Positions 198-17,468 of a stretch of 64,000 nucleotides of DNA are shown here, piece after piece; positions within the stretch are counted from its first letter, which is position 1; every line of letters begins with the position of its first letter. This stretch comes from Aureispira sp. CCB-E (GTDB lineage Bacteria; Bacteroidota; Bacteroidia; Chitinophagales; Saprospiraceae): positions 1,550,001 through 1,614,000 of the forward strand of contig NZ_CP133671.1 of assembly GCF_031326345.1 (NCBI RefSeq), given 5' to 3'. Below the pieces are notes generated by a model that did no database searches, had not been told where the DNA came from, and worked only from the letters and a program-made list of their open reading frames with translations. The translations under genes and the position numbers were made by a program.

Positions 198-269
198 ACG
201 CACAGACGGGACTCGAACCCATAGCCAAGGCTTATGAGACCTTGATGTTTGCCTTTACACCACCGTGCG
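198..269 (-). tRNA. tRNA with CAT anticodon (Met or Ile2)
   Basis: Read on the minus strand this folds as a cloverleaf with acceptor CGCACGG/CTGTGCG, T arm ATGGG-TTCGAGT-CCCGT and anticodon stem AAGGT/GCCTT around loop CTCATAA, so the anticodon is CAT. The D arm is short (GTGT/ACAT). The anticodon stem lacks the three G:C pairs of an initiator, so it is elongator Met or lysidine-modified Ile2. Without the inserted element it would lie directly next to the tRNA-Ala at 13874. No CCA is encoded. Confidence 0.85.
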
Positions 270-295
270 TTGAGTAACGATATATTTTATTAACC

Positions 296-312
296 TTGTG
301 GAAAAGGCGGGA
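296..312. repeat. attL core of the integrative element
   Basis: TTGTGGAAAAGGCGGGA is repeated exactly at 13871-13887. The right copy is the 3' end of an intact tRNA-Ala (acceptor and T-stem), whereas this left copy is only the orphan fragment. Together they bracket the element next to its integrase, as expected for site-specific insertion into a tRNA 3' end. Confidence 0.85.
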
Positions 313-935
313 TTGGAATTTTTATTTTCTATTCCATTTTAAACCATTTTATTATACATATAAAGAGACATTATCTGTCTCACTTTTTGTCTCAGCTGCA
401 AGAACATATTATAATTTTGCAAAAAATGGTTGACTGTATGTTGTCACTTATGAAGAGTAAACTGGGATTTTGTGAATTTAGTTCTCATGGTTTTATTTTT
501 TTGCCAAAAATTTGCTTTTTTTTTTCCAACATCCAACAAGCTATATAACTAATAAAGGGTCTATTTAGTATAAGTAGTTAATAATTAGTAAGTAATAGTA
601 AAATAATAACTAAAAAAAGTACTAAAAAGCTGTTGGAGTCTGTTGGAAATAACGCCTTATCTGTTGGATAAGTTCAACTTCTCGAAAAAAAAAGTAAAAA
701 TGGAGGAAAATCTATATTCCTACAAGTTGTAGGAAAAAAGCCTTGTTTTTCCAACAAAAAGCCGATTTATCCAACTTATTTCAACAGTGTAGGAGTTTTA
801 TTTTGCTGATTTGCAGTTATTTATGTTGATAAATGGGCTTTGTTGGAATTTTGCGACTTCAAAATATATATAAGCACTATAATTATAAAAAGAGCACAAA
901 AGTTATTTTTAAAAAAAGTCACAAAATAATTTTTA
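313..935. repeat. TGTTGGA iteron-like cluster, gene-free
   Basis: This 620-bp AT-rich stretch next to attL has no convincing ORF. The heptamer TGTTGGA occurs at 631, 641, 662 and 841, and its complement TCCAACA at 525, 532 (in tandem) and 750, with a 6/7 match at 770. A 9-bp inverted repeat TTCCTACAA-G-TTGTAGGAA lies at 717-735. Seven perfect copies in about 325 bp is far above chance. It could be a replication origin, an excision-factor binding region or an operator cluster. Confidence 0.6.
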
Positions 936-1205
936 CTAGCCTTTTTTAAGCCTCAAAAACAGCAGTTCAATGATACTTTCTTTATTAGTTAAAGATTGTC
1001 TCAATTGAATGATCTCCTGGTTTTGCTTTTCGATGATTTTAAAAAGTTCTTCTTCTTGCTTCTTGGTGTGTTCTGGTTGGAGCGTATTATTAGAGTTGCT
1101 TAACTCTGAATTATTGATAAAGGTATTACCATCTCCAATAACGATATTCATATTTAGAGTCAGGGTTAAAATAATGATATTATATTTTTCAGGTTGTGCT
1201 TTCAT
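936..1205 (-). CDS. HTH-less paralogue of the element repressor (possible antirepressor)
   Basis: The 89-residue protein has an Asn/Ser-rich segment (GDGNTFINNSELSNSNNT, about residues 24-41) followed by a heptad-like coiled coil to the C-terminus. The neighbouring repressor at 1275-1811 has the same order (NKDGNTIINNSKLTNSNN, then coiled coil), but this protein has no helix-turn-helix domain. It lies just downstream on the same strand, about 70 bp away, probably in one operon. I infer it could mix with the repressor through the shared coiled coil and modulate it. The function is not demonstrated and the homology is by eye. Confidence 0.6.
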   Translation of the reverse strand: MKAQPEKYNIIILTLTLNMNIVIGDGNTFINNSELSNSNNTLQPEHTKKQEEELFKIIEKQNQEIIQLRQSLTNKESIIELLFLRLKKG

Positions 1206-1274
1206 GTATCTAAAAAAACACGAATATTTTTTTGTTTAGTTCCCCGAAAAATAAAGATATATTTCCTTTATATA

Positions 1275-1811
1275 TTACTTGCCCTGTAACAATGAAATAA
1301 TCATTTCCTTGTCTTTTATTTGATTCTCTAAAGTGGCTATATTGCCCTCTAGTACTGACTTAGACTCTTCTAAGATTAATTTAGACTCTCGTAATAATTG
1401 GTTGGCGGTTTGTTCTATTTGGATCTCTTTTTTTAAAGATTTGATTTCTACCTTTAAGCTTTTTATCTCTGCTTTTAGCTCCTTCAGCTTTGAGTCGTTC
1501 TCACTTTGAATAACTGTATTATCTCCAGTATTGGTATTGTTACTGTTGGTTAATTTGCTGTTATTAATTATTGTATTACCGTCTTTATTAGGTTGGTATC
1601 CTTCCTGCATCATTTCACCAGCTCCTATTAATAGCCAATTAATATTAATTCCCATCTCTGCTAAGGGGGTTAATACTTTTGAGCTTGGTAAACCATCTCC
1701 TTTTACAATCCGATTGAAAGCTGATTGTGTAACTCCTAGCTCATCAGCTAATTGAGTTACATTTTTTTTTGAATAAAAAAGGTATAGTTTAAGTCTTTCA
1801 GATATAGACAT
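1275..1811 (-). CDS. XRE-family HTH repressor with coiled-coil tail
   Basis: The 178-residue protein starts with a Cro/CI-type helix-turn-helix of about 65 residues (QLADELGVTQSAFNRIVKG), then an Asn-rich linker (DGNTIINNSKLTNSNNT) and a long Lys/Glu/Leu coiled coil to the end that should drive oligomerisation. It is transcribed leftward, divergently from the small HTH gene at 2235, the usual layout of a lysogeny-type switch. It is probably the master repressor of the element, acting in the gap at 1812-2234. It lacks the peptidase domain of LexA/CI repressors, so SOS self-cleavage is not expected from the sequence. Confidence 0.8.
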   Translation of the reverse strand: MSISERLKLYLFYSKKNVTQLADELGVTQSAFNRIVKGDGLPSSKVLTPLAEMGININWLLIGAGEMMQEGYQPNKDGNTIINNSKLTNSNNTNTGDNTVIQSENDSKLKELKAEIKSLKVEIKSLKKEIQIEQTANQLLRESKLILEESKSVLEGNIATLENQIKDKEMIISLLQGK

Positions 1812-2234
1812 TTACAGAAGAATTAGGATAAAATAAATAATCTAATTTTCTCTTTTTTAGAGAAAATGTTGTTTTTAAGCTAAAAAAGTCTTTAATTTGT
1901 ATTATCAACAATAACTACTTAGTGGAATGAGCCAATTATTGTTGATAGAAAAAGTTCTAAATATTTGACCAAGCAAGGTACTAACTTTTTGCTTTAGGCT
2001 CAAATATCTTAATGTCTTATTTATCGTATGTGATTCCGTGGGAAGAATTACAAACGGCTGAACGGCTACCAGGAACAGCTACCATATTTTATCAAGGGCT
2101 TGATATTGGTATAAGGTTCGAGTCCTTACGTTCAACTAAAAATCCATAATTATTTAATAGTAAGACTTCAACAAGCTACTTTGTTTTGATAAGTGGCTTG
2201 GCGAAGCTTTGTCTAAAACCAAACAAATATAACT
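1812..2234. promoter_or_regulatory. Structured divergent control region of the element
   Basis: This gap separates the leftward repressor from the rightward operon and must hold both promoters. Visible structure includes a perfect 12-bp inverted repeat at 1903-1914/1936-1947 and two interleaved complementary pairs in pseudoknot order: AAAAAGTT with AACTTTTT, and ATATTTGA with TCAAATAT. Next come a tRNA-like fold at 2058-2135 and a 9-bp hairpin AAGCTACTT/AAGTGGCTT around 2172-2200. No ORF of note lies within. It could be operators, a structured RNA, or both. Confidence 0.5.
2058..2135 (+). other. tRNA-like fold of unclear identity
   Basis: On the plus strand TGAACG (2059-2064) pairs with CGTTCA (2129-2134). 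A D-like arm GCT-ACCAGGAAC-AGC with the conserved GG follows, and a canonical T arm TAAGG-TTCGAGT-CCTTA spans 2112-2128. The size (78 nt) fits a tRNA, but the central part forms TATCAAG-GG-CTTGATA rather than a 5-bp/7-nt anticodon arm, so no anticodon can be assigned. It is a decayed tRNA or a tRNA mimic. Confidence 0.4.
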
Positions 2235-2498
2235 ATGAAAAAAGGATCGCTAACACCACAGCAACTTTTTTGCCAGCTCTTAGATCAATTGGCAGTAAAC
2301 GAATACCGAGAGCTGCACAAAAAAATAGGAATCACAAAAAAAATGCTAACACATATGCGCAATGCGCCACATAGTGCTACTTATGAAATGACTTTGAAGT
2401 TTGCCAAAGCCTTAAACGTTGATCCCGTAGAATTAATTGATCTGTATGATTTTGGCGCTTCAAGAATAACCGTAGAAGAGTATAAAGGATTGAAATAA
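2235..2498 (+). CDS. Small Cro-like HTH protein
   Basis: The 87-residue protein is almost entirely an XRE-type DNA-binding domain: an ELHKKIGITKKMLTHMRN recognition region, then the typical ALNVDPVELIDLYDF tail seen after such domains. It is the first gene of the rightward operon and diverges from the repressor at 1275. I infer a Cro-like role that commits the element to replication or expression. A strong hairpin follows 4 bp after the stop codon. Confidence 0.7.
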   Translation: MKKGSLTPQQLFCQLLDQLAVNEYRELHKKIGITKKMLTHMRNAPHSATYEMTLKFAKALNVDPVELIDLYDFGASRITVEEYKGLK

Positions 2499-2502
2499 AA
2501 AA

Positions 2503-2528
2503 AGCTCCTAAGTTGCACCTTAGGAGCT
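2503..2528 (-). terminator. Perfect 10-bp hairpin, leftward terminator-like
   Basis: AGCTCCTAAG (2503-2512) and CTTAGGAGCT (2519-2528) pair perfectly across a 6-nt loop. On the minus strand the hairpin is followed directly by TTTTTTTATTT, the canonical intrinsic terminator form. On the plus strand only a short A-rich stretch follows. It may block leftward read-through toward the repressor, or attenuate the rightward operon. Confidence 0.55.
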
Positions 2529-2543
2529 AAAACTTAGCTGTCT

Positions 2544-3773
2544 ATGCAGACAGACAAAACAGACTTCAAAATTATGAAAAAATTTGCAAAAAATCCATAT
2601 TCCCTCGCTCGTAAGGGAATAAGTTCTTTGATTGCCTCCGAAAGTATGGAGGCAACCTTAGCTAAAAAGTTTCAACACACCACCTTTTCCAAACGTTTTT
2701 GGATGGTCAATTTGTCTTTGATGTTTCTAGCTTTTGCCGTGCAAATGGCTAGTTTAATTACAGCAGGTTTTATGTTGTATCATTACTTTGGCAATGTTCC
2801 GATGCTGCTAAGGATCCCTTTGTTACTGGTTGTTATTTTGGTGATAGAAGTTATTAAGCGGATTGCATTGGATGATGTGTTTAAATCTGCTTTTCAATAC
2901 CGAGAATTTGAACCGTTTTCTTTTGCTGTTTCAATGGTATTTGTGGGTATTAGTATAGGTATCTCTTATGGAGGGGCTTCTTTTGTTGCGGCTCTGATGG
3001 TGAACCAACCTCAAGCGATTGAACCAAGTTTAAAAAGTGCGGCTCCCATCCAAACCAATTATCAAGCGCAAATTGCAGCGATTGTACAAGAACGAGACAC
3101 GATTCGAGCTACTCGTTTGTACCGTGGCAAGCTAAGAAGTGAAGACCAACGAGCGATTAATAAGCACAACGAAACGATTAAAAGTTTGCAAACAGAGCAG
3201 CGGCAAGAGCTGCAGTCGTTGGCACAAGAAAATGATTCGTTGGCAGTCGCTGCAGCTGCAGCAACAGCGGTGTTAATTGCGCAAGCAACTAAAGAATGCC
3301 AGGCATTAGAACAACAGTTAGAATATGCGGTGCTTATCTTTGAATTGTTGCTGTTATTGTGCTTGTCGTTTAGTTGGTGGTATTATGATAATTGTCGAAA
3401 AGAGCGCCTTGGAATGGCAGAAAATGCCGCCATAGAAACGGCAGAAGAGGAGGAAGGCACTCCTTCTAGCACGCCAGCCGTTACTACAGCCGTTACGCCC
3501 ATTACTCCAGCAGCGACAGGAGGAGAAGCGGCTCCCATCTTGAGCCAAAAAAAGATTGGATTTATTGATTATGAGCAGACCGAAACGGCAGAAGAAAACG
3601 ACAGCCATACGATAGCAAAAGAATTAGAATATACTCGTAAATGTCCTGTTTGTGAAACGGGTTTTATTCATAATTCATGGAATCACACCTACTGTACAGA
3701 AGCCTGTAAAATCAAAGCTTGGGAAAAGCGGACGAACAGAAAATATACAGGGCCTACGACTAAAAAAGCATAA
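2544..3773 (+). CDS. Membrane protein with coiled coil and C-terminal zinc finger
   Basis: This is a 409-residue protein (399 if the start is ATG 2574). It has about four hydrophobic helices: two near residues 52-110, one near 125-152 and one near 257-275. A charged Glu/Gln-rich coiled coil sits between the third and fourth, and an Ala/Thr/Pro linker follows. The end carries a CPVC...YCTEAC four-cysteine finger (last 40 residues) like those at the ends of many phage and plasmid proteins. It lies between the Cro-like gene and the primase. I do not recognise the family. Membrane anchoring of the replication machinery is one guess. Confidence 0.7.
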   Translation: MQTDKTDFKIMKKFAKNPYSLARKGISSLIASESMEATLAKKFQHTTFSKRFWMVNLSLMFLAFAVQMASLITAGFMLYHYFGNVPMLLRIPLLLVVILVIEVIKRIALDDVFKSAFQYREFEPFSFAVSMVFVGISIGISYGGASFVAALMVNQPQAIEPSLKSAAPIQTNYQAQIAAIVQERDTIRATRLYRGKLRSEDQRAINKHNETIKSLQTEQRQELQSLAQENDSLAVAAAAATAVLIAQATKECQALEQQLEYAVLIFELLLLLCLSFSWWYYDNCRKERLGMAENAAIETAEEEEGTPSSTPAVTTAVTPITPAATGGEAAPILSQKKIGFIDYEQTETAEENDSHTIAKELEYTRKCPVCETGFIHNSWNHTYCTEACKIKAWEKRTNRKYTGPTTKKA

Positions 3774-3796
3774 CTAACCCCCTATAAAAACACATT

Positions 3797-6700
3797 ATGT
3801 ATATTACGAATTTAGAACAATTGAAATCAAAATTTGAGATAGAAACAGTAGTTGCTGATTTAACGGATTGGAATGAGGGAATGAAGCCTTCTATGTGCTG
3901 CCCATTTCATAAAGAAAAAACGCCTTCTTTTTCTATCTCAAAATCAAAAAATATAGCCACTTGTTTTGGGAGCTGTGGCAAGACGTACACCCCAATTAGT
4001 TTTGTAATGGAATACAAACAATTGGACTTTGTGGCAGCGGTAGAATATGCTGCAAAATTGCATCGGGTAGCGGTAGAGTATGCGGAGCAATTGAGCGAAG
4101 AGCAGCTGGAGGAGCTGAAAGCTCGACAAATCAAAAAAGAGCAATATTTGCTTTATAATCGTTTGGTTGCCGAGGCTTATTTTAAGCATCATCATGGAGA
4201 AGAGGAGCTGGTTGAAGAAATCTATTTTGGAGAAAGGAGTTTAAAAGGGGCAACGGTTCAAGCTTTTGGCATTTGTCAAAGTTCGGAGAATTGGCATTTT
4301 ACCGAGGATTTGAAATTAGACAATACAACCTTGAAAGAATTGGGCATTATCAAGAAAGGGAAAAAGGGCTTTTTTGATGTGTTTAGAAATCGTGTTTTAT
4401 TTCCTATTCATAACCCTAGTAGGGCAGTGGTTGGTTTTGCAGGTCGAGCGATAGAAGAGGATCAAAAACCTAAATACTTGAACAGCTGTGAAACGGATCT
4501 ATACCAAAAGGAGCAGCTCTTGTATGGCTTGAGTCAACAACTCCAAGAAATCAAAGCATCCAAAGTAGTTTATTTGGTAGAGGGGTATTGGGATGTTTTG
4601 AGTTTGTACGATGCGAAGTTCTTTGGAGCGGTAGCCGCTGGAGGCACATCGTTGAGTGTTGCACAAGCAAAATTGATCAATCGTTATGCGGAGCGTGTTG
4701 TTTTGTTGTATGATGGAGACCAGGCAGGAATAGAAGCCGTTAGCCGAAATCTACCCAAACTAATAGATATAGGACTTCATGTTGATATTATTCCTTTGCC
4801 CGAAAATCAAGATCCTGATAGTTACATTCGAGAGATAGGAGCAGAGGCATTTGAGGAGTATTGCAAGAAAAATAAAACAGATGCGATTAATTGGTATTTG
4901 GAGCATGAGCTGCAGCACTCAGAAAGAGATAATTTTGCAATTCAGCGTATTAGTGAGTTGTCTATTGAGTTGATTGCAAAAGTAAAAAATAGTTTATCTC
5001 AAGATTGTTATGTTCGAGATGTTTCCAAGTTGCTAGGCATTAAACAAAGTATTTTAGGAGGGCAACTTAATGAAAAATTAGGGGAATTAGCATTGACCTT
5101 AAAACAAGATACATTGACACCTGCACAGCGTAAAAGCTTGTTTAAATATGGGATTTATGAAGATGAAAAACAATATTGGTCTAGCGATGGGAAAGGAGGA
5201 TATTCTTGTATTTCTAATTTTGTAGTCAAGCCTTTGTTTCATCTCAAATCAAAAGAAAATCCAAAGCGCTTGTTTGAGTTGTTGAATAAATACGACCAAA
5301 AAGTTTTGTTAGATGTAGAGGCGGTTGTTTTGGTTGGTTTGGATAAATTTAGAGTAGCAGTTGAAGCAGAAGGGAACTATTTTTTTACGGGTAATTTGGC
5401 GCAGTACAACCGAATAAAAGCCAAGATTTATGATGAAATGAAAACCTGTTATGAAGTCGATGTGTTGGGCTATCACAAGGACGGTTTTTATACTTTTGGA
5501 AATGGCATTTATACCATAGAAAAAGGGTTTGTTCCTGTGAATAAATACGGTACTTTATGTTATAAAGACAAGCGTTATTTTTTGCCTGCTTTTAGCGATA
5601 TTTACAAGGATTCGGATATGTCCTTTAAAGATGAAAAAAACTTTGCTTACCAGGACTCAAAAATTACCTTCAAACAATGGTCTACTTTGTTTTGTAAGGT
5701 GCATGGCAGCAAAGGACAAATAGCCATCTGTTTTTATATTGCGACTCTGTTTAGAGATGTGATCCATGAGTATGTCAATTTTCCTTTACTCAATTTGTTT
5801 GGTCAACCAGGAACAGGAAAATCATTTATGGGAAAGAACCTTTCGTATATGTTTGGAATTGCTAAAGATGGTTTTAATCTCAATAGTGGTACGTTGGTTG
5901 GGTTTTATAATCGCTTGGTATTGGCTCGGAATGCCTTGGTATTTTGTGAGGAGTATTTTAATTCGATAGACTTTAGATTTATCCAGGGTTTAAAATCTAT
6001 TTACGATGGGATTGGACGAGAAAAAGGACAAAAGACAGGAACAAAAAGTTTGGTTAGTGAGATTTATTCCGCTTGTGTATTTGTAGGGCAGGAGCTGCCA
6101 ACATTTGACAATGCTTTGTTTACTCGTGTAATTAATTTGGCATTTTCACAAACAGAATACAGTCAAGAAGAAACGAATGCTGCAGAAGAATTAAAAGCCA
6201 TGCGCAAGAATGGGGAATTAATCAACATCACGGCAAAATTAAGCGCTTTTAGACCATATATCCAAGCCCATTATGAGGAGCAATACAACCGTACTTTTTC
6301 AGCCATCAAAAAGGCAGTCGCTCAAAAAGGAGTACACACTCGATTAGTTGAAAATAACGCTGCTATTTTAACGGTTTTTGATTTGCTGAAGGAAAAAGTT
6401 ACTTTTCCTTTTAGTACAGATGAAGTGTATCAAAATTGTATTGATAATATCTTGCACCAAAACGACCAAATACACAGCGAAACAGAAACGGCTATGTTTT
6501 GGGATTTGATCGAATACCTGGTAAGTACTGGACTCTTGGAAGAGGGCGTGGATTATAAGATTGTTGAAAAATTGAGCTGGAAAAATGTAAGCTATGATAA
6601 ACCTAAAAATATCTTGTATCTATCGTTTGCCAAAGCATTTCCATTGTATCGTGAATATCACAAGCGCCAATTGGGCAAAGATGGTTTAACAAAATCTTCT

Positions 6701-6985
6701 TTATCGCATTATCTCAAGACACACCCAGGCTTTATGGAGTACCTCAAAAGTACGAGAATGGGCAAGAAAAACACTTCTGCTTTTGTCTTTGATTATGATG
6801 CTCTAAATGTTCATATCAAAGAAGAAGGATCTGCTTCTTATGATTACACGGCAGAAAATGATATTTGGGCAGAACAGCAAGAACATGAAGATTTGATGAC
6901 TCAAAAAATTAAAAAAGCTCAAGAAGAGAATGCTAAAAAAGAGATGGATTATTATAATAAAGTCCTTAAATCGTCCAAGAAGTAA
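3797..6985 (+). CDS. DNA primase-helicase (CHC2 zinc finger, TOPRIM, P-loop)
   Basis: The N-terminus has a DnaG-type zinc-binding domain (C34/C35, H38, C56, C60). A TOPRIM domain follows, with LVEGYWDV and LLYDGDQAG at about residues 255-320. The C-terminal half has a Walker A motif GQPGTGKS (residues 669-676) and an acidic FCEEY Walker-B-like motif about 45 residues later. The fused layout resembles primase-helicases of satellites, phages and plasmids (P4 alpha-like organisation), not host DnaG. It should prime and unwind element DNA at an origin that is not identified here. Size is 1062 residues. It ends just before a 10-bp hairpin at 7001-7036. Confidence 0.88.
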   Translation: MYITNLEQLKSKFEIETVVADLTDWNEGMKPSMCCPFHKEKTPSFSISKSKNIATCFGSCGKTYTPISFVMEYKQLDFVAAVEYAAKLHRVAVEYAEQLSEEQLEELKARQIKKEQYLLYNRLVAEAYFKHHHGEEELVEEIYFGERSLKGATVQAFGICQSSENWHFTEDLKLDNTTLKELGIIKKGKKGFFDVFRNRVLFPIHNPSRAVVGFAGRAIEEDQKPKYLNSCETDLYQKEQLLYGLSQQLQEIKASKVVYLVEGYWDVLSLYDAKFFGAVAAGGTSLSVAQAKLINRYAERVVLLYDGDQAGIEAVSRNLPKLIDIGLHVDIIPLPENQDPDSYIREIGAEAFEEYCKKNKTDAINWYLEHELQHSERDNFAIQRISELSIELIAKVKNSLSQDCYVRDVSKLLGIKQSILGGQLNEKLGELALTLKQDTLTPAQRKSLFKYGIYEDEKQYWSSDGKGGYSCISNFVVKPLFHLKSKENPKRLFELLNKYDQKVLLDVEAVVLVGLDKFRVAVEAEGNYFFTGNLAQYNRIKAKIYDEMKTCYEVDVLGYHKDGFYTFGNGIYTIEKGFVPVNKYGTLCYKDKRYFLPAFSDIYKDSDMSFKDEKNFAYQDSKITFKQWSTLFCKVHGSKGQIAICFYIATLFRDVIHEYVNFPLLNLFGQPGTGKSFMGKNLSYMFGIAKDGFNLNSGTLVGFYNRLVLARNALVFCEEYFNSIDFRFIQGLKSIYDGIGREKGQKTGTKSLVSEIYSACVFVGQELPTFDNALFTRVINLAFSQTEYSQEETNAAEELKAMRKNGELINITAKLSAFRPYIQAHYEEQYNRTFSAIKKAVAQKGVHTRLVENNAAILTVFDLLKEKVTFPFSTDEVYQNCIDNILHQNDQIHSETETAMFWDLIEYLVSTGLLEEGVDYKIVEKLSWKNVSYDKPKNILYLSFAKAFPLYREYHKRQLGKDGLTKSSLSHYLKTHPGFMEYLKSTRMGKKNTSAFVFDYDALNVHIKEEGSASYDYTAENDIWAEQQEHEDLMTQKIKKAQEENAKKEMDYYNKVLKSSKK

Positions 6986-7611: not shown

Positions 7612-7612
7612 A

Positions 7613-9150: not shown

Positions 9151-9154
9151 ACCA

Positions 9155-9649: not shown

Positions 9650-9653
9650 ATGC

Positions 9654-9690: not shown

Positions 9691-9774
9691 TTTGTATAAA
9701 GTTTCGGGTAATATGACTTTATTTAGTAGTTTCCTCAATATTGAATTGAAGATTGTAAGGACTAAACACAAATA

Positions 9775-11364: not shown

Positions 11365-11379
11365 ACTACTGGGATTATT

Positions 11380-12660
11380 ATGGTAATAATGGATGATAAA
11401 AAGAAGAAATTGGTGCCTGCTTTGAGGTTTTCGGAGTTTGAGGGGGAGTGGGAGGATATAAAATATGGAAATATTTATACATTTTATTCCACCAATTCAT
11501 TTTCTAGAGATAATCTAAATTATGAAAAAGGGATAGTTAAGAATATTCATTATGGTGATATTCATACCAAGTTTCAAACAATGTTTGATATAGAAAAAGA
11601 ACTTGTTCCCTTTGTTAATGAAGATATAAATATTAGTAAAATAGCTAGTGATAATTATTGTAAGGAAAAAGATTTAGTTATTGCTGATGCTTCTGAAGAT
11701 TATGCAGATATAGGGAAATCTATCGAGATTATAAATCTAAATAAAGAACGTGTAATAGCAGGACTTCATACATTTTTGGCTAGACCCAATAAACGTGATT
11801 TAGCATCTGGTTTTGGAGGTTATCTAATGCAATCTTGGGCTATTAGAAAACAGATAATGACAATAGCTCAAGGAACAAAAGTATTAGGACTTTCGACTAA
11901 GAGAGTAGTTAATGTATTATTAACTATCCCCACCCTCCCCGAACAACAAAAAATAGCCAACTTCCTATCCTCGGTAGACAAAAAAATCGAACAGCTCCGC
12001 CAAAAAGTAAGCCTCTTGGAGGACTACAAAAAAGGCGTAATGCAGCAGATTTTTAGTCAGCAAATTCGCTTTAAGGATGATAATGGGGAGGCGTTTGCGG
12101 ATTGGGAATACATTAAATTAGGTAAATTGACTTATAAAGTAGGTAAGAAAAACAAAGAGAATATTCAATACCCTATATATTCAATTAATAACCAAGAAGG
12201 TTTCTTGCCTCAGTCTGAGCAGTTTGAGGGAATGGATAGTAATGATAGAGGTTATGATATTAGCTTGTATAAAATAATCAAGAAAGGAACCTTTGCTTAT
12301 AACCCTGCAAGAATTAATGTTGGGTCTATAGGGTTTAGTGGAGAGTTGGATAACGTTATTATTAGTTCACTTTATGTTTGTTTTAAAACAAAAGAGAACT
12401 TGGAAGATGCTTATCTACTTAAATTCCTAGATACATTTGATTTTAATAAAGGAGTTCTTAGAAATGTAGAAGGAGGTGTTAGGCAGTATCTTTTTTATGA
12501 TAATTTTTCTAGTATAAAAATTCCTTTACCATCAAACAAAGAGCAACTTAGAATAGCTGATTTTTTGAATAGTATAGATGAAAAAATCAAACAAAATCAA
12601 ATAAAAGTAAAGCAAGCCCAACAATTCAAAAAAGGCTTGTTACAGCAACTATTTGTATAA
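11380..12660 (+). CDS. hsdS: Type I restriction-modification specificity subunit S
   Basis: The 426-residue protein has two target-recognition domains (about 1-190 and 235-400), each followed by a helical spacer with the typical LPEQQKIANFLSSVDKKIEQL and NKEQLRIADFLNSIDEKIKQN repeats. A possible earlier in-frame start MVIMDDKK is used here. The two recognition domains are AT-rich compared with the conserved spacers, as usual for swapped recognition modules. It sets the DNA sequence methylated by HsdM. A bidirectional terminator follows at 12667. Confidence 0.93.
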   Translation: MVIMDDKKKKLVPALRFSEFEGEWEDIKYGNIYTFYSTNSFSRDNLNYEKGIVKNIHYGDIHTKFQTMFDIEKELVPFVNEDINISKIASDNYCKEKDLVIADASEDYADIGKSIEIINLNKERVIAGLHTFLARPNKRDLASGFGGYLMQSWAIRKQIMTIAQGTKVLGLSTKRVVNVLLTIPTLPEQQKIANFLSSVDKKIEQLRQKVSLLEDYKKGVMQQIFSQQIRFKDDNGEAFADWEYIKLGKLTYKVGKKNKENIQYPIYSINNQEGFLPQSEQFEGMDSNDRGYDISLYKIIKKGTFAYNPARINVGSIGFSGELDNVIISSLYVCFKTKENLEDAYLLKFLDTFDFNKGVLRNVEGGVRQYLFYDNFSSIKIPLPSNKEQLRIADFLNSIDEKIKQNQIKVKQAQQFKKGLLQQLFV

Positions 12661-12666
12661 AAAAAA

Positions 12667-12697
12667 CTCCAAGGGTTAATTTTCCCTTGGAGCTTTT
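12667..12697. terminator. Bidirectional terminator between hsdS and integrase
   Basis: CTCCAAGGG (12667-12675) pairs perfectly with CCCTTGGAG (12684-12692). It is followed by CTTTTT and preceded by AAAAAA, so it can end hsdS rightward and the convergent integrase leftward. Confidence 0.85.
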
Positions 12698-12703
12698 TGC
12701 ATT

Positions 12704-13753
12704 TTAAATACTAGGAAACTTATCCCTCAGATCCCCCAAATCAGAGACACCCAATTGTCTCAAATATTCGTCCACCTGATCCAAGGAATGATGGCGTAAT
12801 TGAATTTGTAGTTGTTTAATATGAATGCCAGCCTTTACTGCAGCAACAGCGCCCGTATGCTTCCAGGAGTACAACTTATAGCGAGTAGTATCAAAACCCA
12901 ATTCTTTTAAAATTAGTCGGTGTTGCCGCCCAAAAGTATTCATACCAGTAGGAGCCAAATAATGCGTACCAGGAAATAAATATTCGTTAGGAGTACGGTT
13001 TTTTAGTTTTTGCTTGACAGTAGGAAAAAAAGCGTTAGGGATCGCAACGTATTGTTGCTTTTTATTTTTGGATATGTTAGAAGGGACAAGAATTTTTTGT
13101 TCCTCAATGATAATATCTCCCACCTTGAGCAACCGAAGCTCTGCACGAGGTCGAAGGAAACAGTAATACACAAACTGCACAAAAAACCACAAATTAGGAT
13201 TCTTATTTTTTATGGCATTACTTAGAAATGTTATTTGGCTCTGGGTAAAGTATGTGGCTGGAGTAGGAGAAGCTTTTCGAGTTTCAATTGCATCTAATAG
13301 ATGCTGTTGATCACACCAACTAAGTGCTTGAGTAATGCACTGTATATAGTCGTTGTATGTATTAGGAGATAATCTTTTTTCTTTGGTTAGGTGTTCAAAG
13401 AAGAATTGATAAACACTTTCCTCATTCCACTTTTTATTTTGCATCCAATTGGTAAAAATACGAATCTTGGATTTTTTGCAACTATAAGTTTTAGGTCTCC
13501 ATATTGGCTTCCTGCTTTCTAATTCCTCCAGTATTTTTTGGATAATTCCTCTATTGACTTTTTGTAAATGGACGCTCTCTAATTGATCCATCAATTTCCT
13601 AGCTGCAACCTTTCTAGCTTGTAGCGTTTTGAATTTATTGATGTCACCATATTTTTTAATTCGTTTGCCTTGGTCATTATAATAGTAAACAAACCATCGA
13701 GCAGTTAGTGAATTATTAGCAGTGTATAATTGAGGCAAACTATTTTTAATCAT
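12704..13753 (-). CDS. Tyrosine recombinase / site-specific integrase
   Basis: The 349-residue protein has an N-terminal arm/SAM-like domain and a C-terminal catalytic domain. Visible catalytic elements are the Arg in FLRPRAELRLLKVGDI, the KHTGA box (His-x-x-x of the second motif) and LRHHSLDQVDEYLRQLG with the candidate nucleophile Tyr. It starts about 120 bp from the attR copy inside tRNA-Ala and points away from it, which fits an integrase using the tRNA 3' end. It is expected to drive integration. No excisionase is recognised, though the small HTH gene could serve. Confidence 0.92.
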   Translation of the reverse strand: MIKNSLPQLYTANNSLTARWFVYYYNDQGKRIKKYGDINKFKTLQARKVAARKLMDQLESVHLQKVNRGIIQKILEELESRKPIWRPKTYSCKKSKIRIFTNWMQNKKWNEESVYQFFFEHLTKEKRLSPNTYNDYIQCITQALSWCDQQHLLDAIETRKASPTPATYFTQSQITFLSNAIKNKNPNLWFFVQFVYYCFLRPRAELRLLKVGDIIIEEQKILVPSNISKNKKQQYVAIPNAFFPTVKQKLKNRTPNEYLFPGTHYLAPTGMNTFGRQHRLILKELGFDTTRYKLYSWKHTGAVAAVKAGIHIKQLQIQLRHHSLDQVDEYLRQLGVSDLGDLRDKFPSI

Positions 13754-13870
13754 TGTTTAGTTTTTGTACAAATAGGTCTAGGCTGAACGAAAGGCGAAAG
13801 ATACTCTAAATTTATATATTATGTATCATTTTAATTTGTTAATTGTTGATAATTAGTAATTTAAAAGTTT

Positions 13871-13887
13871 TTGTGGAAAAGGCGGGA
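13871..13887. repeat. attR core inside tRNA-Ala 3' end
   Basis: This is an exact copy of the 17-mer at 296-312. It covers the 3' side of the acceptor stem and the start of the T stem of tRNA-Ala, so the tRNA stays intact after insertion. Confidence 0.85.
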
Positions 13888-13946
13888 GTCGAACCCGCAT
13901 CCTTCTCGTTGCAAACGAGATGCTCCGCCAATTGAGCTACTTCCCC
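13874..13946 (-). tRNA. tRNA-Ala(TGC)
   Basis: The acceptor GGGGAAG/CTTTTCC has two G-U pairs. The anticodon stem TCTCG/CGAGA holds loop TTTGCAA, anticodon TGC. Its 3' end is the element's attachment site. No CCA is encoded. Confidence 0.93.
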
Positions 13947-14000
13947 GAATAAGTGCCTTTAGTGACTGAGTAGGTTTTGAATCTACAGCCTCTTATTTAG

Positions 14001-14073
14001 AGCAAGTGATGAGACTCGAACTCACAATCTTCTGGGTGGAAACCAGGTGCCCTAGCCATTGGACCACACTTGC
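14001..14073 (-). tRNA. tRNA-Gly(TCC)
   Basis: Acceptor GCAAGTG/CACTTGC with discriminator T (usual for bacterial Gly). D stem GTCC/GGGC; loop TTTCCAC gives anticodon TCC. The outermost anticodon-stem pair is a C-A mismatch. Confidence 0.85.
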
Positions 14074-14090
14074 TGTTAGTCTATGTGTTG

Positions 14091-14163
14091 TACTCTAGAT
14101 AGGATTCGAACCTATACTACAACGGGTTTAAGCCGTTTGCCTCTTCCATTGGGCTACTAGAGT
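14091..14163 (-). tRNA. tRNA with Leu anticodon TAA but class I body
   Basis: Acceptor ACTCTAG/CTAGAGT, anticodon stem AACGG/CCGTT, loop CTTAAAC (anticodon TAA), T arm ATAGG/CCTAT, discriminator A. The variable loop is only 5 nt (GTAGT). Bacterial tRNA-Leu normally has a long variable arm, so this body is atypical. It resembles the TAG tRNA at 14335. Confidence 0.85.
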
Positions 14164-14242: not shown

Positions 14243-14250
14243 TAAAATTG

Positions 14251-14324
14251 TACGGGTGACAGGGTTGAACCTGCATCTCCTAAGTCCCAAACCTAGTGCT
14301 TTTGCCTTGTTAAGCTACTCCCGT
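14251..14324 (-). tRNA. tRNA-Pro(TGG), copy 1, 6-nt T loop
   Basis: Loop TTTGGGA gives anticodon TGG. Compared with the otherwise nearly identical copy at 14625, one base is missing in the T loop (TTCAAC, 6 nt). That breaks the universal 7-nt T loop, so this copy may be degenerate. Confidence 0.75.
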
Positions 14325-14334
14325 AAATATTGGG

Positions 14335-14408
14335 TACCTTCAGTGAGAATCGAACTCACACTGTATAGGGTCTAAGCCTATTGCCTCTTCCATTTGGGCT
14401 ATGAAGGT
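14335..14408 (-). tRNA. tRNA with Leu anticodon TAG but class I body
   Basis: Acceptor ACCTTCA/TGAAGGT, anticodon stem ATAGG/CCTAT, loop CTTAGAC (anticodon TAG), T arm GTGAG/CTCAC, discriminator A. The variable loop is short (ACAGT). It shares the D region TAGCCCAA.TGGAAGAGGC with the TAA tRNA at 14091, so they are paralogues. Confidence 0.85.
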
Positions 14409-14411
14409 AAA

Positions 14412-14699: not shown

Positions 14700-14720
14700 A
14701 AATTTAATTACAAAGTAAAG

Positions 14721-14794
14721 ATCAGGCAGTAGGACTTGAACCTACAACCTCTGGAGTCAAAGTCCAGTGCTCTAGCCAATTGAGCTATACCTGA
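14721..14794 (-). tRNA. tRNA-Gln(TTG)
   Basis: Acceptor TCAGGTA/TGCCTGA, anticodon stem CTGGA/TCCAG, loop CTTTGAC, anticodon TTG. Confidence 0.92.
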
Positions 14795-14843
14795 ATAATT
14801 GGTTTTATGGTTTAATCTAAACTTGTTTTAGATCATCACATTG

Positions 14844-14917
14844 CAGGGGCAGCAGGATTTGAACCTACAACCTTTGGTTTTGGAGACCAGTGCTCTACCA
14901 GATTGAGCTATACCCCT
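14844..14917 (-). tRNA. tRNA-Trp(CCA)
   Basis: Acceptor AGGGGTA/TGCCCCT with discriminator G, and loop CTCCAAA (anticodon CCA). The sequence is very close to typical bacterial tRNA-Trp. Confidence 0.95.
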
Positions 14918-14925
14918 AGTTTTTG

Positions 14926-15012
14926 CGGAAAGAGTGGGAATCGAACCCACACGAGTCGTTAACTCCGAACAGTTTTCAAGACTGTGGCCACCACCTATTG
15001 GCTTGTCTTTCC
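14926..15012 (-). tRNA. tRNA-Ser(TGA)
   Basis: Class II, 87 nt. Acceptor GGAAAGA/TCTTTCC, loop CTTGAAA (anticodon TGA), long variable arm, discriminator G as usual for Ser. Confidence 0.94.
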
Positions 15013-15026
15013 AGTTTGTTTTGTAG

Positions 15027-15109
15027 CGGAGGATACAGGAATCGAACCTGTGTTCCATAAGGAAACCTATCCTTAGCAGGGAAGTGCCTTGCCACTCGGC
15101 CAATCCTCC
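15027..15109 (-). tRNA. tRNA-Ser(GCT), weak anticodon stem
   Basis: Class II, acceptor GGAGGAT/ATCCTCC, discriminator G, loop CTGCTAA (anticodon GCT). Only three of five anticodon-stem pairs form (CTTCC against GGATA), so its function is less certain. Confidence 0.82.
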
Positions 15110-15359
15110 ATAAAACAGGCAAACAGCCTGTCCGTTGTAACATCTAAAATTATCTTGGAAGACTATTCTTATGAAAAGAACCCCAATTTTTAGTTGCATT
15201 TTAGTGTTACAACAAGCGATTGTCAATCGCTTTCGATCATAGAACTTTTTCTGATTTGGATTAATGGTTAATCCTTATGTCTACTCCTTGTGTTTCTCCA
15301 AGACAGCAATAGTAGCACTTGTTTGGAGGTAAGTTTTCTTAAAAACTTACTCAGAATAG
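15110..15359. other. 250-bp tRNA spacer without a gene
   Basis: It contains a small hairpin ACAGGC/GCCTGT just after the Ser(GCT) gene. I see no tRNA or convincing ORF in it. Confidence 0.5.
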
Positions 15360-15446
15360 GGCATCTGACAGGATTCGAACCTGCGACGGACATATTGTCC
15401 AGTAGAGTCACAATCTACTTGCTTAAGCCTCTCGCACACAGATACC
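15360..15446 (-). tRNA. tRNA-His(GTG) with class II variable arm
   Basis: Loop TTGTGAC gives anticodon GTG. The extra G(-1) pairs with C73 (GGTATCTG/CAGATGCC), the hallmark of HisRS recognition. Unlike normal tRNA-His, it has an extra stem GGAC-AATAT-GTCC as a long variable arm and a 3-bp D stem TGC/GCA. It is the only His tRNA in the array. Confidence 0.85.
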
Positions 15447-15473
15447 ATTCTGGAGAATTACTAGCATTCGTCG

Positions 15474-15559
15474 TAGTGGCGACGGGATTCGAACCCGCGA
15501 ACTCAATAACTTGGACTAGGTTGAAAGCCTAGCTGCTTTGACCACTTGCATACACCACC
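15474..15559 (-). tRNA. tRNA with Glu anticodon TTC and class II body
   Basis: Anticodon stem CTAGG/CCTAG holds loop CTTTCAA (anticodon TTC). The tRNA is 86 nt with a long variable region (CAA-GTTA-TTG inside). The D stem is TGC/GCA, like the His tRNA next door; acceptor GGTGGTG/CGCCACT. Canonical tRNA-Glu is class I, so charging is uncertain. Confidence 0.82.
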
Positions 15560-15737
15560 AATTTAAAAATCTTAATGAGTTGGATTATGTCGAATGCGTA
15601 ATGATTTACTTCAGGTTATATGTTTTGAATGATTCATTTCTGTTCAAATAAAACTTGCCTCAAAACGACATAATTATTCCTACTATTTGAAAAACTGCTT
15701 GAATAAAGTTGTATGTTGTTCATTATTTCTTTTTTTG

Positions 15738-15811
15738 TGAAGATGGTAGGATTTGAACCTACAACCATCCCGTTAGAAGCGGGAAGCTCTAATCCATTGA
15801 GCTACATCTTT
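15738..15811 (-). tRNA. tRNA-Arg(TCT)
   Basis: Anticodon stem TCCCG/CGGGA, loop CTTCTAA (anticodon TCT), T arm GTAGG/CCTAC. The first acceptor pair is A1-C72, a mismatch. Confidence 0.9.
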
Positions 15812-15821
15812 GTTTGTATAG

Positions 15822-15895
15822 AGCCGATAGAGGGACTTGAACCCACGACCTGTTGATTACAAATCAACTGCTCTAGCCAGCTGAGCTATATCGGC
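15822..15895 (-). tRNA. tRNA-Thr(TGT)
   Basis: Acceptor GCCGATA/TATCGGC, anticodon stem GTTGA/TCAAC, loop TTTGTAA (anticodon TGT). Confidence 0.94.
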
Positions 15896-15906
15896 AGATA
15901 TAAAAG

Positions 15907-15979
15907 TAAACCGAGTGGGACTCGAACCCACGCTCCTCTGATTAAAAGTCAGATGCTTTGCCAACTAAGCTACCGGTTT
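15907..15979 (-). tRNA. tRNA-Lys(TTT), copy 1
   Basis: Acceptor AAACCGG/TCGGTTT, stem TCTGA/TCAGA, loop CTTTTAA. With its flank it is duplicated at 16218. Confidence 0.94.
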
Positions 15980-16044
15980 GTTTCTAAGTGTTCCTCGTTG
16001 TATACTTAGCCCCTAACAGGAGCTGTTGAAATTGAACGAACTAG

Positions 16045-16118
16045 TGGTATTACTTAGACTTGAACTAAGGACCTCTGGTTTTTCAGACCAGCGCTCTTAC
16101 CAACTGAGCTATAATACC
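16045..16118 (-). tRNA. tRNA-Phe(GAA)
   Basis: Acceptor GGTATTA/TAATACC, stem CTGGT/ACCAG, loop CTGAAAA (anticodon GAA), T arm CTTAG/CTAAG, discriminator A. Confidence 0.94.
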
Positions 16119-16129
16119 GTTTATTGTGG

Positions 16130-16203
16130 CGGACTGGGTAGGGCTCGAACCTACGACTTTCTGATTAACAGTCAGACGCTCTAACCAACTGAGCTACCAA
16201 TCC
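16130..16203 (-). tRNA. tRNA-Asn(GTT), CCA encoded
   Basis: Acceptor GGATTGG/CCAGTCC, loop CTGTTAA (anticodon GTT), discriminator G. CCA follows in the DNA at 16127-16129, unlike the other tRNAs here. Confidence 0.94.
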
Positions 16204-16217
16204 GTAGTTTTGTAAAG

Positions 16218-16291
16218 TAAACCGAGAGGGATTTGAACCCACGCTCCTCTGATTAAAAATCAGATGCTTTAGCCAACTAAGCTACCGGTTT
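16218..16291 (-). tRNA. tRNA-Lys(TTT), copy 2
   Basis: Same body as the Lys tRNA at 15907, with loop TTTTTAA. The downstream flank (GTTCCTCGTTGTAT) is also duplicated, showing a segment duplication. Confidence 0.94.
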
Positions 16292-16352
16292 GTTTCCTAA
16301 TGTTCCTCGTTGTATCTAGATCAAATGATCGATTGGACAGTGAACGAGCTAG

Positions 16353-16424
16353 TGACACTACTTAGAATCGAACTAAGTGCCTTCTCCTTTTCTGGAGGTG
16401 CTCTTGCCATTGAGCTATAGCGTC
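16353..16424 (-). pseudogene. Degenerate tRNA (6-nt anticodon loop)
   Basis: The acceptor GACGCTA/TAGTGTC, D arm and T arm (CTTAG/CTAAG) are good. The anticodon arm reads CCTCC-AGAAAA-GGAGA: a 6-nt loop without U33 and a mismatched outer pair. By position in the duplicated block it matches the Phe tRNA at 16045 and shares its T stem. No anticodon can be assigned. Confidence 0.7.
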
Positions 16425-16431
16425 ATTTGAG

Positions 16432-16506
16432 TGGAAATGATAGGATTCGAACCTATGACTTCTTGGGTGTAAACCAAGTGCTCTAAACCAACTGAGCTAC
16501 ACTTCC
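16432..16506 (-). tRNA. tRNA-Val(TAC)
   Basis: Acceptor GGAAGTG/CATTTCC, stem CTTGG/CCAAG, loop TTTACAC (anticodon TAC), discriminator A. Confidence 0.94.
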
Positions 16507-16597
16507 TTTTTTTTATGAATACTTTATTTTAGGCAATAGAATTTTATGCTGATAAAAATGATTTTTCAGTTTGGTATTCATCTATAAAGTCTTTTTG

Positions 16598-16671
16598 TAG
16601 AAATGATAGGACTTGAACCTATGATCTTTTGAGTATCAGTCAAACGCTTTAACCAACTAAGCTACATCTCT
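16598..16671 (-). tRNA. tRNA-Ile(GAT)
   Basis: Acceptor AGAGATG/CATTTCT, stem TTTGA/TCAAA, loop CTGATAC (anticodon GAT), discriminator A. Confidence 0.93.
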
Positions 16672-16715
16672 ATATGGTGCTTTATTGTGTTATTAATTTT
16701 AGCAACCAATTTTGG

Positions 16716-16787
16716 CGATGGAGACGAGATTCGAACTCGCAACCTTAGGATAGACAATCCTCTGCGCTACCGTTGCGCCACACCATC
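16716..16787 (-). tRNA. tRNA-Asp(GTC)
   Basis: Loop TTGTCTA gives anticodon GTC. D stem GCGC/GCGC, T arm GCGAG/CTCGT, discriminator G. There is one acceptor T-T mismatch and a mismatched outer anticodon pair. Confidence 0.88.
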
Positions 16788-17009
16788 GTAAAAAATAAAA
16801 ACGAATGTAAAAATAAGAGTATAACAAGCCCGCTTTGCGGTTCACTTCACTGAATACCATCAAAGGTATTCCCCCTTCGGGTTCGTGCCGTTGTGGAGTA
16901 CAATTGCGAATGAAGTAAGTTAATTCTGGAAGAGAATAAAAATAGCATTATTCGCAGTTGTAAGTCCACCTTGGTTCAACTACGAATTCAATACTACTAA
17001 AGGAGAGAA

Positions 17010-17273
17010 TTATAGTTGATGTATGTTATTGTTGAAGGCTGCTAGTTGCCAAAAACTTAAGGTAGCATTGGGGCAATCTTGGCCTCCAAATCTAGCGTTA
17101 CCTATAGGCATTTGCCCACTTTTTTGACTCGGCAGAGTCAAGCCTTCTTTGCTTAGCTCCATCTCGATAGCGTCATTGCGCTCACTAATGCGAGTGTCTA
17201 AGACTCGTTTTTGTAAATTGGCTAGCATAATTGTTGTTACAATCGATACTGAAGTTACAAATAGTGTTCTCAT
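17010..17273 (-). CDS. Small hypothetical ORF inside the tRNA array
   Basis: This is an 87-residue reading frame on the tRNA strand. Its N-terminus is hydrophobic (MRTLFVTSVSIVTTIMLANL) and it has no recognised domain. It sits between tRNA-Asp and tRNA-Tyr with 220 bp of spacer before tRNA-Asp. It may be a real co-transcribed peptide or chance. A short nucleotide segment (17061-17077) resembles 17947-17963 in the other small ORF nearby. Confidence 0.35.
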   Translation of the reverse strand: MRTLFVTSVSIVTTIMLANLQKRVLDTRISERNDAIEMELSKEGLTLPSQKSGQMPIGNARFGGQDCPNATLSFWQLAAFNNNIHQL

Positions 17274-17384
17274 AATCTGATGGTTTTAGAGAATAATTGA
17301 CAGGCAATTATTCTGGTTCTTAGGTTATTTTGACGTTTCTAATAAATATCTATGAAGCGGATGAAACTTATAGAGTTTTATTAG

Positions 17385-17468
17385 TGGGGCGAGAGGGATT
17401 CGAACCCCCGAAGTAATTAAACGCCTGATTTACAGTCAGGCTCCTTTGAGCCGCTTGGATATCTCCCC
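17385..17468 (-). tRNA. tRNA-Tyr(GTA)
   Basis: Class II, 84 nt. Acceptor GGGGAGA/TCGCCCC (one mismatch), loop CTGTAAA (anticodon GTA), long variable arm, discriminator A. It is the outermost (promoter-proximal) tRNA of the array. Confidence 0.94.

Follow-up and report, generated by a model that had tools for sequence, protein, structure and literature searches.

The analysed window, 64,000 nucleotides of the chromosome of Aureispira sp. CCB-E (genome G000), contains most of a dense tRNA gene array that is split by an integrated element. Comparison of the array with the other tRNAs of the genome, with related genomes and with phages suggests that it is probably a supernumerary phage-type tRNA operon, which an ancestor of a single Aureispira clade acquired and which has been passed on at a fixed position in the chromosome. 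It would provide a spare set for damaged housekeeping tRNAs, and its ends would serve as landing sites for integrases.

Structure of the array and of the inserted element

Every one of the 25 tRNA genes that ARAGORN identified in the window is on the minus strand; a single gene occupies 197-269, and the other 24 lie in 13873-17468. Rfam produced 25 matches above the gathering score, 24 to tRNA and one to tRNA-Sec, the latter overlapping a serine tRNA gene. The 26th gene of the array, tRNA-Arg(ACG), has the same orientation and lies approximately 250 bases to the left of window position 1, where the first-pass annotation had proposed to look for tRNA-Cys. The 26 genes serve 19 amino acids with no Cys gene among them, and no tRNA-Cys was called by ARAGORN in the arrays of CCB-E, CCB-QB1, G003 or G006. 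The observation made from the sequence, 24 tRNA genes plus one degenerate copy on one strand covering all amino acids except cysteine, is thus confirmed, whereas its interpretation is partly supported. The degenerate copy is most likely the gene at 16352-16424, which has an imperfect anticodon stem. With 24 genes packed into 3.6 kb, the array is far denser than chance would give and satisfies the definition of a long tRNA array used in PMC6409571, at least 2 tRNA genes per kb and a minimum of 15 genes. The features of the array are as follows; intact tRNA genes are as called by ARAGORN.

197..269, minus strand: tRNA-Met(CAT) by anticodon, Met or Ile2 both being possible; severed from the remaining array by the element
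13873..13946, minus strand: tRNA-Ala(TGC), integration target
14000..14073, minus strand: tRNA-Gly(TCC)
14090..14163, minus strand: tRNA-Leu(TAA), short (class I) variable loop
14168..14242, minus strand: tRNA-Gly(GCC)
14250..14324, minus strand: tRNA-Pro(TGG), copy 1
14331..14409, minus strand: tRNA-Leu(TAG), short (class I) variable loop
14624..14699, minus strand: tRNA-Pro(TGG), copy 2
14720..14794, minus strand: tRNA-Gln(TTG)
14843..14917, minus strand: tRNA-Trp(CCA)
14925..15012, minus strand: tRNA-Ser(TGA)
15026..15109, minus strand: tRNA-Ser(GCT)
15359..15445, minus strand: tRNA-His(GTG), long (class II) variable arm; G-1 and C73 retained
15473..15559, minus strand: tRNA-Glu(TTC), long (class II) variable arm
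15737..15811, minus strand: tRNA-Arg(TCT), not called in the G003 and G006 arrays
15821..15895, minus strand: tRNA-Thr(TGT)
15906..15979, minus strand: tRNA-Lys(TTT), copy 1
16044..16118, minus strand: tRNA-Phe(GAA)
16127..16203, minus strand: tRNA-Asn(GTT)
16217..16291, minus strand: tRNA-Lys(TTT), copy 2
16352..16424, minus strand: decaying tRNA copy, called by ARAGORN as Phe-GAA in G000 and Ser-AGA in CCB-QB1; counterpart not called in G003 and G006
16431..16506, minus strand: tRNA-Val(TAC)
16597..16671, minus strand: tRNA-Ile(GAT)
16713..16787, minus strand: tRNA-Asp(GTC)
17010..17273, minus strand: 87-aa ORF within the array, 76% identical to its G006 version
17384..17468, minus strand: tRNA-Tyr(GTA), first gene of the array
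17796..17996, minus strand: 66-aa ORF in the leader, with length and frame shared by CCB-QB1, G003 and G006

Over the 72 bases compared, the tRNA-Met genes of G000, CCB-QB1, G003 and G006 do not differ. Both the leader and the stretch beyond tRNA-Arg show conservation among the arrays, and a hairpin followed by a T-run, a predicted terminator, was seen by eye after tRNA-Arg in the alignment. The array may be read as one leftward transcript starting from the leader. Differences between the 87-aa ORF and its G006 counterpart are skewed to third codon positions. Differences in the 66-aa leader ORF show no third-position bias (4, 3 and 5 by codon position), and it was dropped as a proven gene.

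The element inserted in tRNA-Ala has the following features.

296..312: att core, left copy (17 bp), TTGTGGAAAAGGCGGGA
313..13870: integrated element of about 13.6 kb, missing from the same place in CCB-QB1, G003 and G006
1275..1811, minus strand: CI-type HTH repressor gene
2235..2498, plus strand: small HTH regulator gene
2544..3773, plus strand: gene of a 409-aa protein with a weak HNH-endonuclease match
3797..6985, plus strand: phage-type primase gene, 1062 aa
9775..11364, plus strand: type I methylase gene hsdM
11380..12660, plus strand: type I specificity subunit gene hsdS
12704..13753, minus strand: tyrosine integrase gene adjoining the att site
13871..13887: att core, right copy (17 bp); overlaps tRNA-Ala at its 3' end

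The 17 bases at 296-312 and 13871-13887 are the same. Since CCB-QB1 carries the 26-gene array without an insert at the same place, the element and its repeat are established: in this natural empty site the 17-bp sequence occurs once, and the Met and Ala genes are 28 bases apart. Like phage-satellite-like elements that integrate into tRNA genes, the element has an integrase and a directly repeated att sequence where the tRNA gene ends, with an empty site in a sister strain, and the initial claim that a mobile element splits the array is upheld. The primase is 28% identical to that of Cellulophaga phage Ingeline over 93% of its 1062 residues; distant phage primases were recovered by tblastn, and a scan of viral contigs with primase patterns gave zero matches. 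A repressor and a primase were found in the element and no capsid genes were recognised; HsdR is absent among the element proteins scanned. The insertion would now cut tRNA-Met and tRNA-Arg off from the promoter.

Of the arrays of G000, CCB-QB1, G003 and G006, one carries an integrase-bearing element in tRNA-Ala. A different integrase gene lies directly behind tRNA-Arg in CCB-QB1, and an integrase fragment is found at the same end of the array in G000.

These integrase genes, together with the element in tRNA-Ala, could mean that the 3' ends of the array are kept mainly as integrase targets and that translation is secondary. However, a tRNA 3' end suffices for landing, and such a role would not preserve the anticodon and D stems in every member compared. 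We consider this explanation most improbable.

Other tRNAs of the genome and distribution of the array

The Rfam search, in which 150 of 577 candidates were scored, together with anticodon assignment, revealed 47 tRNAs outside the array in G000, and 21 of the 23 array anticodons are also present elsewhere in the genome. The array thus stands beside a housekeeping set. The 47 other tRNAs, the patchy distribution of the array and its divergence rule out an ordinary housekeeping operon: the array is neither the only source of the tRNAs nor present in all relatives, with Ile-GAT and Ala-TGC as possible exceptions to the former. The expectation of the first-pass annotation that other copies lie elsewhere in the genome therefore holds for 21 anticodons and fails for these two in the sequence searched.

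No second tRNA-Ile(GAT) or tRNA-Ala(TGC) was found in the G000 sequence searched by Rfam (the same 150 of 577 candidates), by anticodons and by BLAST, the queries being the array Ile (BLAST), Ile patterns and the Ile-Ala pair of a relative (BLAST). The 16S-23S spacers of two rRNA operons of G000 were read and contain no tRNA; the third operon has the same flank-to-flank length. No 16S gene was found by search of G003, G005, G002 and G006. A possible tRNA relic in the rRNA spacer has a suggestive fold (8 of 200 shuffles were equally good) and shuffle-level similarity to Ile and Ala tRNAs, and it is not claimed. One possibility, striking at first, is that the array is the only source of Ile-GAT and Ala-TGC, so that a once-foreign operon has become essential. 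This could not be demonstrated, as the Rfam scoring covered part of the candidates of a genome searched in part. Moreover, the array tRNA-Ile of G003 is broken, and thus that species must have another source of this tRNA, and CCB-QB1 has an extra, odd Ala-TGC outside the array. We retain a takeover of this kind as a distinctly unlikely alternative to a spare set.

The same 26-gene array, uninterrupted, is present in CCB-QB1. Two other Aureispira genomes have a collinear array at this locus, with 21 genes called in G003 and 24 in G006; the right flank, DUF389 and further genes, is syntenic across them. No array match was observed in five further members of the genus (G001, G002, G004, G005, G007; seven candidates scored per genome). 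The array is absent from the orthologous locus in G002, G004, G005 and G007; in G001 this locus is broken by a contig end. No tRNA was found near the locus in G002, G004 (4.9 kb read) and G005. In G007, a single Phe tRNA lies about 10 kb from it. The first-pass annotation had asked whether related genomes lack the array; four of them do at this locus, and G003 and G006 do not.

A 211-base query covering the Glu-His pair matched 47 of the 396 genomes of the order, a sample without G006. Three matches extend over at least 200 of the 211 bases (G000, G003 and G380, the last apparently being CCB-QB1), and the remaining 44 cover 21-43 bases of the query. The array was probably gained in this clade rather than lost elsewhere, and no donor was found. 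Its collinear counterparts at this locus in G003 and G006, and its evolution under constraint, indicate that it is not a recent arrival. Not all of its members have survived: Ile is broken in G003, Arg-TCT is missing in G003 and G006, Gly-GCC is missing in G003, and the Phe-like copy is degenerate. Hence not all genes are needed. Other Saprospiraceae contain clusters of 10 (G021), 15 (G012) and 13 (G382) tRNAs, those of G012 and G021 running to a contig end; their gene sets and order differ from those of the Aureispira array, and short-arm Leu occurs in G021 and G382.

Divergence, variable arms and selection

The array tRNAs are 52-80% identical to host tRNAs with the same anticodon, the exception being Thr at 93%, where the host copy compared is the CCB-QB1 gene. 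Array orthologues, where present in both genomes, are 70-100% identical. Long variable arms are usually restricted to Leu, Ser and Tyr (PMC7609411). Four of the 26 array tRNAs have the "wrong" class, two short-arm Leu and the long-arm His and Glu, vs. one of the 47 host tRNAs outside the array.

Base pairs were compared between CCB-QB1 and each of the other lineages. The tRNAs used were those called by ARAGORN in each of the two genomes, a choice biased towards intact genes. For G003 (21 tRNAs, 444 pairs) there are 21 compensatory changes vs. 0.9 expected and 4 broken pairs vs. 48.0 expected; for G006 (24 tRNAs, 506 pairs), 17 vs. 0.7 and 3 vs. 46.7, respectively. These counts indicate that selection maintains the structure of the array tRNAs. 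They bear on the possibility that the array is a decaying relic of a tRNA-carrying prophage or plasmid with no present function, which would be consistent with the gene losses, the degenerate copy and the cutting of the operon by the element. Such a relic, however, would not be expected to keep nearly all pairs through compensatory changes, or a conserved leader, ORF and region behind tRNA-Arg, and no phage structural genes were seen in the neighbouring proteins scanned, a subset of the flank ORFs. It is therefore unlikely.

In CCB-QB1, 19 of 21 array anticodons share the discriminator base with a host tRNA of the same anticodon; the exceptions are Gln and Leu-TAG, as parsed. In G003 the discriminators of both Ser tRNAs are unlike those of the host. 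Features read by synthetases are retained, namely G-1:C73 in His, G3:U70 in Ala (by eye) and A73 in Leu-TAA and Glu. Enzymes cutting tRNA variable loops have been reported, Septu (PMC13096335) and VapC52 (PMC13273310). A doubtful conjecture is that the class switch is an evolved disguise: the features read by synthetases are kept, and the foreign body would evade nucleases that cut variable or anticodon loops. The solution would have arisen or been shared in phages before its fixation in a bacterial chromosome, where it would provide a second set for translation that is proof against nucleases.

Under the spare-operon reading, a long phage-type tRNA operon would have entered the ancestor of the clade and then stayed at its single chromosomal place. 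The reserve set might sustain translation while tRNA-targeting toxins, phage defence or ribosome stress cleave or deplete the housekeeping tRNAs, a role that others have shown for the 26-gene trn operon of Anabaena.

Phage tRNAs and known arrays

Among the phage loci read, short-arm Leu was observed in four, long-arm Glu in two and long-arm His in one (LR756500). Two of the five phages from the whole-array search have short-arm Leu (one of two Leu tRNAs in both Bromden and phi17:2). Class switches are absent from PaP1 (0 of 15 tRNAs) and PAU (0 of 6), and PaBG has one doubtful case of 5; the switch is no general phage trait. No report of long-arm His or Glu or short-arm Leu in phages or arrays was met in passages of PMC7609411, PMC10264068 and PMC12482277.

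When the CCB-QB1 array tRNAs are compared with all tRNAs of seven phage loci, their best matches have 66-85% identity. The whole-array search gave no phage matching 80% of the array, and neither a phage nor a plasmid carrying this array turned up. In viruses, exact patterns of the Glu-His junction and of the Met tRNA had no match, and the Glu-His pair had zero matches in plasmids. The 87-aa and 66-aa ORFs have no relatives in viral contigs, and the flanking proteins scanned, a subset of the flank ORFs, include no phage structural or lysis genes. Since the searches turned up no phage with this array, it is the structure of the tRNAs that supports a phage origin. The initial view of a phage-like or horizontally moved array thus agrees with the divergence from host tRNAs and with class switches that recur in phage tRNAs, but the array is not recent.

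The Aureispira genomes provide a natural experiment, with the array uninterrupted in CCB-QB1, split in a very close strain, shedding genes in another lineage and absent elsewhere. As the structure is maintained by selection, the long-arm His and Glu and the short-arm Leu tRNAs could be used to probe synthetase acceptance and escape from tRNA-cleaving enzymes.

Long tRNA arrays are already known in cyanobacteria, mycobacteria and phages, but few of them have had their role tested. Many clustered tRNAs, and some short-arm Leu, are also found in phage clusters (Bacillus phage P59, Klebsiella phage phi1_175008, the huge phages LR756500 and LR745206, and others); as regards arrays in Bacteroidota, PMC6409571 names Cellulophaga phages. 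The tRNA array units of Mycobacterium are similar in being a clustered second set for 19-20 amino acids, unlike the chromosomal tRNAs in sequence (PMC12803027). They occur on chromosomes, plasmids and phages, including linear plasmids of M. avium, whereas the Aureispira array belongs to another phylum, is chromosomal and appears to be vertically inherited within a clade. The trn operon of Anabaena sp. PCC 7120 also has 26 tRNA genes beside the housekeeping set, and is repressed by TrcR and activated by translation antibiotics (PMC10272220). That operon resides on a megaplasmid, whereas the Aureispira array is chromosomal and occupies a locus common to three lineages; in one strain an element splits it.

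Composition of the array and the inserted element

Within the window ARAGORN called 25 tRNA genes, each read leftward: one at 197-269 and 24 within 13873-17468. The 25 Rfam matches above the gathering score fall at the same places. This agrees with the first-pass annotation, which had counted 24 tRNA genes and one degenerate copy on one strand, reading 19 of the 20 amino acids without Cys; indeed, the 23 distinct anticodons of the array serve 19 amino acids. That annotation had proposed checking for the missing tRNA-Cys left of position 1; the gene found there, immediately beyond the window edge, is Arg-ACG, the 26th of the array. tRNA-Cys is absent from this array, and none was called in the arrays of Aureispira sp. 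CCB-QB1, G003 and G006. By the general decoding rules, with the CAT tRNA treated as Met, the set would decode 57 of the 61 sense codons if four-codon boxes are read by superwobble, and 45 otherwise.

An identity of 100% between the DnaX protein encoded in the window and its CCB-QB1 counterpart places the host in Aureispira. In CCB-QB1 the same 26 tRNA genes are present and the insert is absent. The 17-bp repeat TTGTGGAAAAGGCGGGA occurs at window positions 296-312 and 13871-13887, and shares bases with the tRNA-Ala 3' end. Both copies match positions 5728-5744 of the CCB-QB1 stretch L233, and homology between the genomes stops precisely at the repeat on either side of the insert. The split by a mobile element, proposed from the sequence, is thus borne out. 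The insert is also absent from tRNA-Ala in the G003 and G006 arrays. The 13.6-kb element encodes:

integrase, at the tRNA-Ala end
CI-type repressor
small HTH protein
phage-type primase, 1062 aa
HsdM and HsdS

The alignment of the primase with its counterpart in Cellulophaga phage Ingeline covers 93% of the protein, with 28% of residues identical. None of the element proteins scanned was recognised as a capsid protein. The element resembles a phage satellite. Variation is also seen at the tRNA-Arg end: another tyrosine integrase lies behind tRNA-Arg in CCB-QB1, and the genome of the window (G000, in which the window spans C1:1550001-1614000) carries a fragment of an integrase together with a type I restriction locus. 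The type I restriction-modification locus left of the array (positions 2469-11436 of L001, from G000) includes a Fic-domain gene.

Distribution, divergence and candidate operon signals

Seven candidates were scored per genome in the eight genomes of the genus, G000-G007. Among the matches listed, collinear ones occur in G000, G003 and G006, and the other five genomes have matches of single-tRNA size only. ARAGORN called 21 array tRNAs in G003 and 24 in G006. The right flank, with DUF389 and methyltransferase genes, is syntenic, in G003 as far as DnaX and beyond. The DUF389 locus has no array in G002, G004 (read over 4.9 kb), G005 and G007; the G001 contig ends 1.2 kb past DUF389. A single Phe tRNA lies about 10 kb from the locus in G007. 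A search with the Glu-His pair in 396 genomes of the order gave three matches near full length and 44 others, all short.

Other Saprospiraceae have different arrays, with 10 tRNAs in G021, 15 in G012 (one with its anticodon undecided) and 13 in G382. In G021 (stretches L054 and L285) spacers of several hundred bases separate some tRNAs, and the Rfam matches in L054 are tRNAs alone. In the G003 array (L139, 16113-16740), the interval from Pro to Leu contains about eight tandem units, counted by eye, rich in CCGCTTTGCGG; this core also occurs at window positions 14464-14480 and 16830-16846.

Base pairing was compared for tRNAs called in both genomes, with expectations from an equal number of changes placed at random. 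Between CCB-QB1 and G003 (21 tRNAs, 444 pairs), 404 pairs are unchanged, 21 compensatory, 15 altered on one side but still paired, and 4 broken, against 0.9 compensatory and 48.0 broken expected. For G006 (24 tRNAs, 506 pairs) the counts are 465, 17, 21 and 3; the expected numbers are 0.7 for compensatory and 46.7 for broken pairs. For spacers of 25 or more bases on both sides, identity to CCB-QB1 is 43-65% in G003 and 43-78% in G006; the 27-base spacer between Glu and His stands apart at 93% and 100%, respectively. Array tRNAs are 52-80% identical to host tRNAs with the same anticodon. The exception is Thr (93%), which suggests that the array Thr gene was replaced by a host copy.

All four genomes share a conserved leader ahead of tRNA-Tyr, and in the alignment a GC hairpin followed by T's after tRNA-Arg appears, by eye, conserved. 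Two small ORFs at the array head are retained in relatives:

17796-17996, minus strand: 66-aa ORF in the leader, of equal length in all four genomes
17010-17273, minus strand: 87-aa ORF within the array, 76% identical in G006

Differences by codon position number 4, 3 and 5 in the former, without third-position bias, and 11, 9 and 29 in the latter. G003 has a 78-aa ORF in place of the 87-aa one, its second half similar by eye. Pfam and PHROG gave no match for the 87-aa ORF, and no relatives of either ORF were found in viral contigs.

tRNA genes outside the array

Rfam found at least 73 tRNAs in the 7.39-Mb genome, at least 47 of them outside the array, with 150 of 577 candidates scored. The first-pass expectation of other chromosomal copies holds for 21 of the 23 anticodons; for Ile-GAT and Ala-TGC no copy outside the array was found among these tRNAs, nor a second one by searches of G000 with the array Ile, Ile patterns and a relative's Ile-Ala pair. 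Since the searches covered the visible part of the genome sequence, 150 of 577 candidates were scored and the array Ile of G003 is broken, we do not claim the array as the sole source of these two tRNAs. The two visible rRNA operons each have a tRNA-free 295-base spacer, and the flank-to-flank distance of the third equals theirs. The two visible 16S-23S spacers (L138), though tRNA-free, have a small tRNA-like fold that includes a T-arm; similarity to Ile or Ala is no higher than for shuffles.

CCB-QB1 also has, at 1520-1932 of L234, a further small group of unusual tRNA-like genes (Ala, Ser, Asp, Met), with acceptor stems of 8 bp. Met alone was called in its presumed G000 counterpart (L236).

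Variable-arm switches and similarity to phage tRNAs

In the array, the variable loops of tRNA-Leu(TAA) and Leu(TAG) are 5 nt long, and the variable arms of His and Glu 17 nt. The same Leu, His and Glu switches occur in G003 and G006 (18 nt in the G006 His), where the Leu(CAA) loop is short as well. Outside the array, one of 47 tRNAs in G000 is switched, a Phe; the tRNA-Phe(GAA) at 115-195 of L022, outside the array, has a 12-nt variable region. G-1 and C73 of the array His are retained in all four genomes.

The same switches are found in phages. Among those selected by similarity to the array Leu, both Leu tRNAs of Bacillus phage P59 are short, as are three of the five in huge phage LR745206, which also has a long Asn. 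Among those selected by similarity to Glu-His, Klebsiella phage phi1_175008 has long Glu and Asn, huge phage LR756500 has long Glu and His, as in the array, and f2b1 has a long Cys. The whole-array search yielded five phages: Mycobacterium phage Bromden and Cellulophaga phage phi17:2 each have one short Leu of two, and no switch was observed in PaP1 (0 of 15 tRNAs) or PAU (0 of 6), with one doubtful case among five in PaBG.

Nine of 21 comparable anticodon loops differ between the CCB-QB1 array and its host. Differences of this kind are reported for phage tRNAs evading anticodon nucleases (PMC10264068); PMC12482277 judges such evasion unlikely for that paper's own phage.

The best reading is that the array is a phage-type long tRNA operon, acquired in the clade, kept for use and serving as a landing site for integrases. 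Its putative function is proposed by analogy with two known systems: the Anabaena trn operon, which is normally silent and activated by translation antibiotics (PMC10272220), and the mycobacterial tRNA arrays, for which PMC12803027 presents an anti-defence view.
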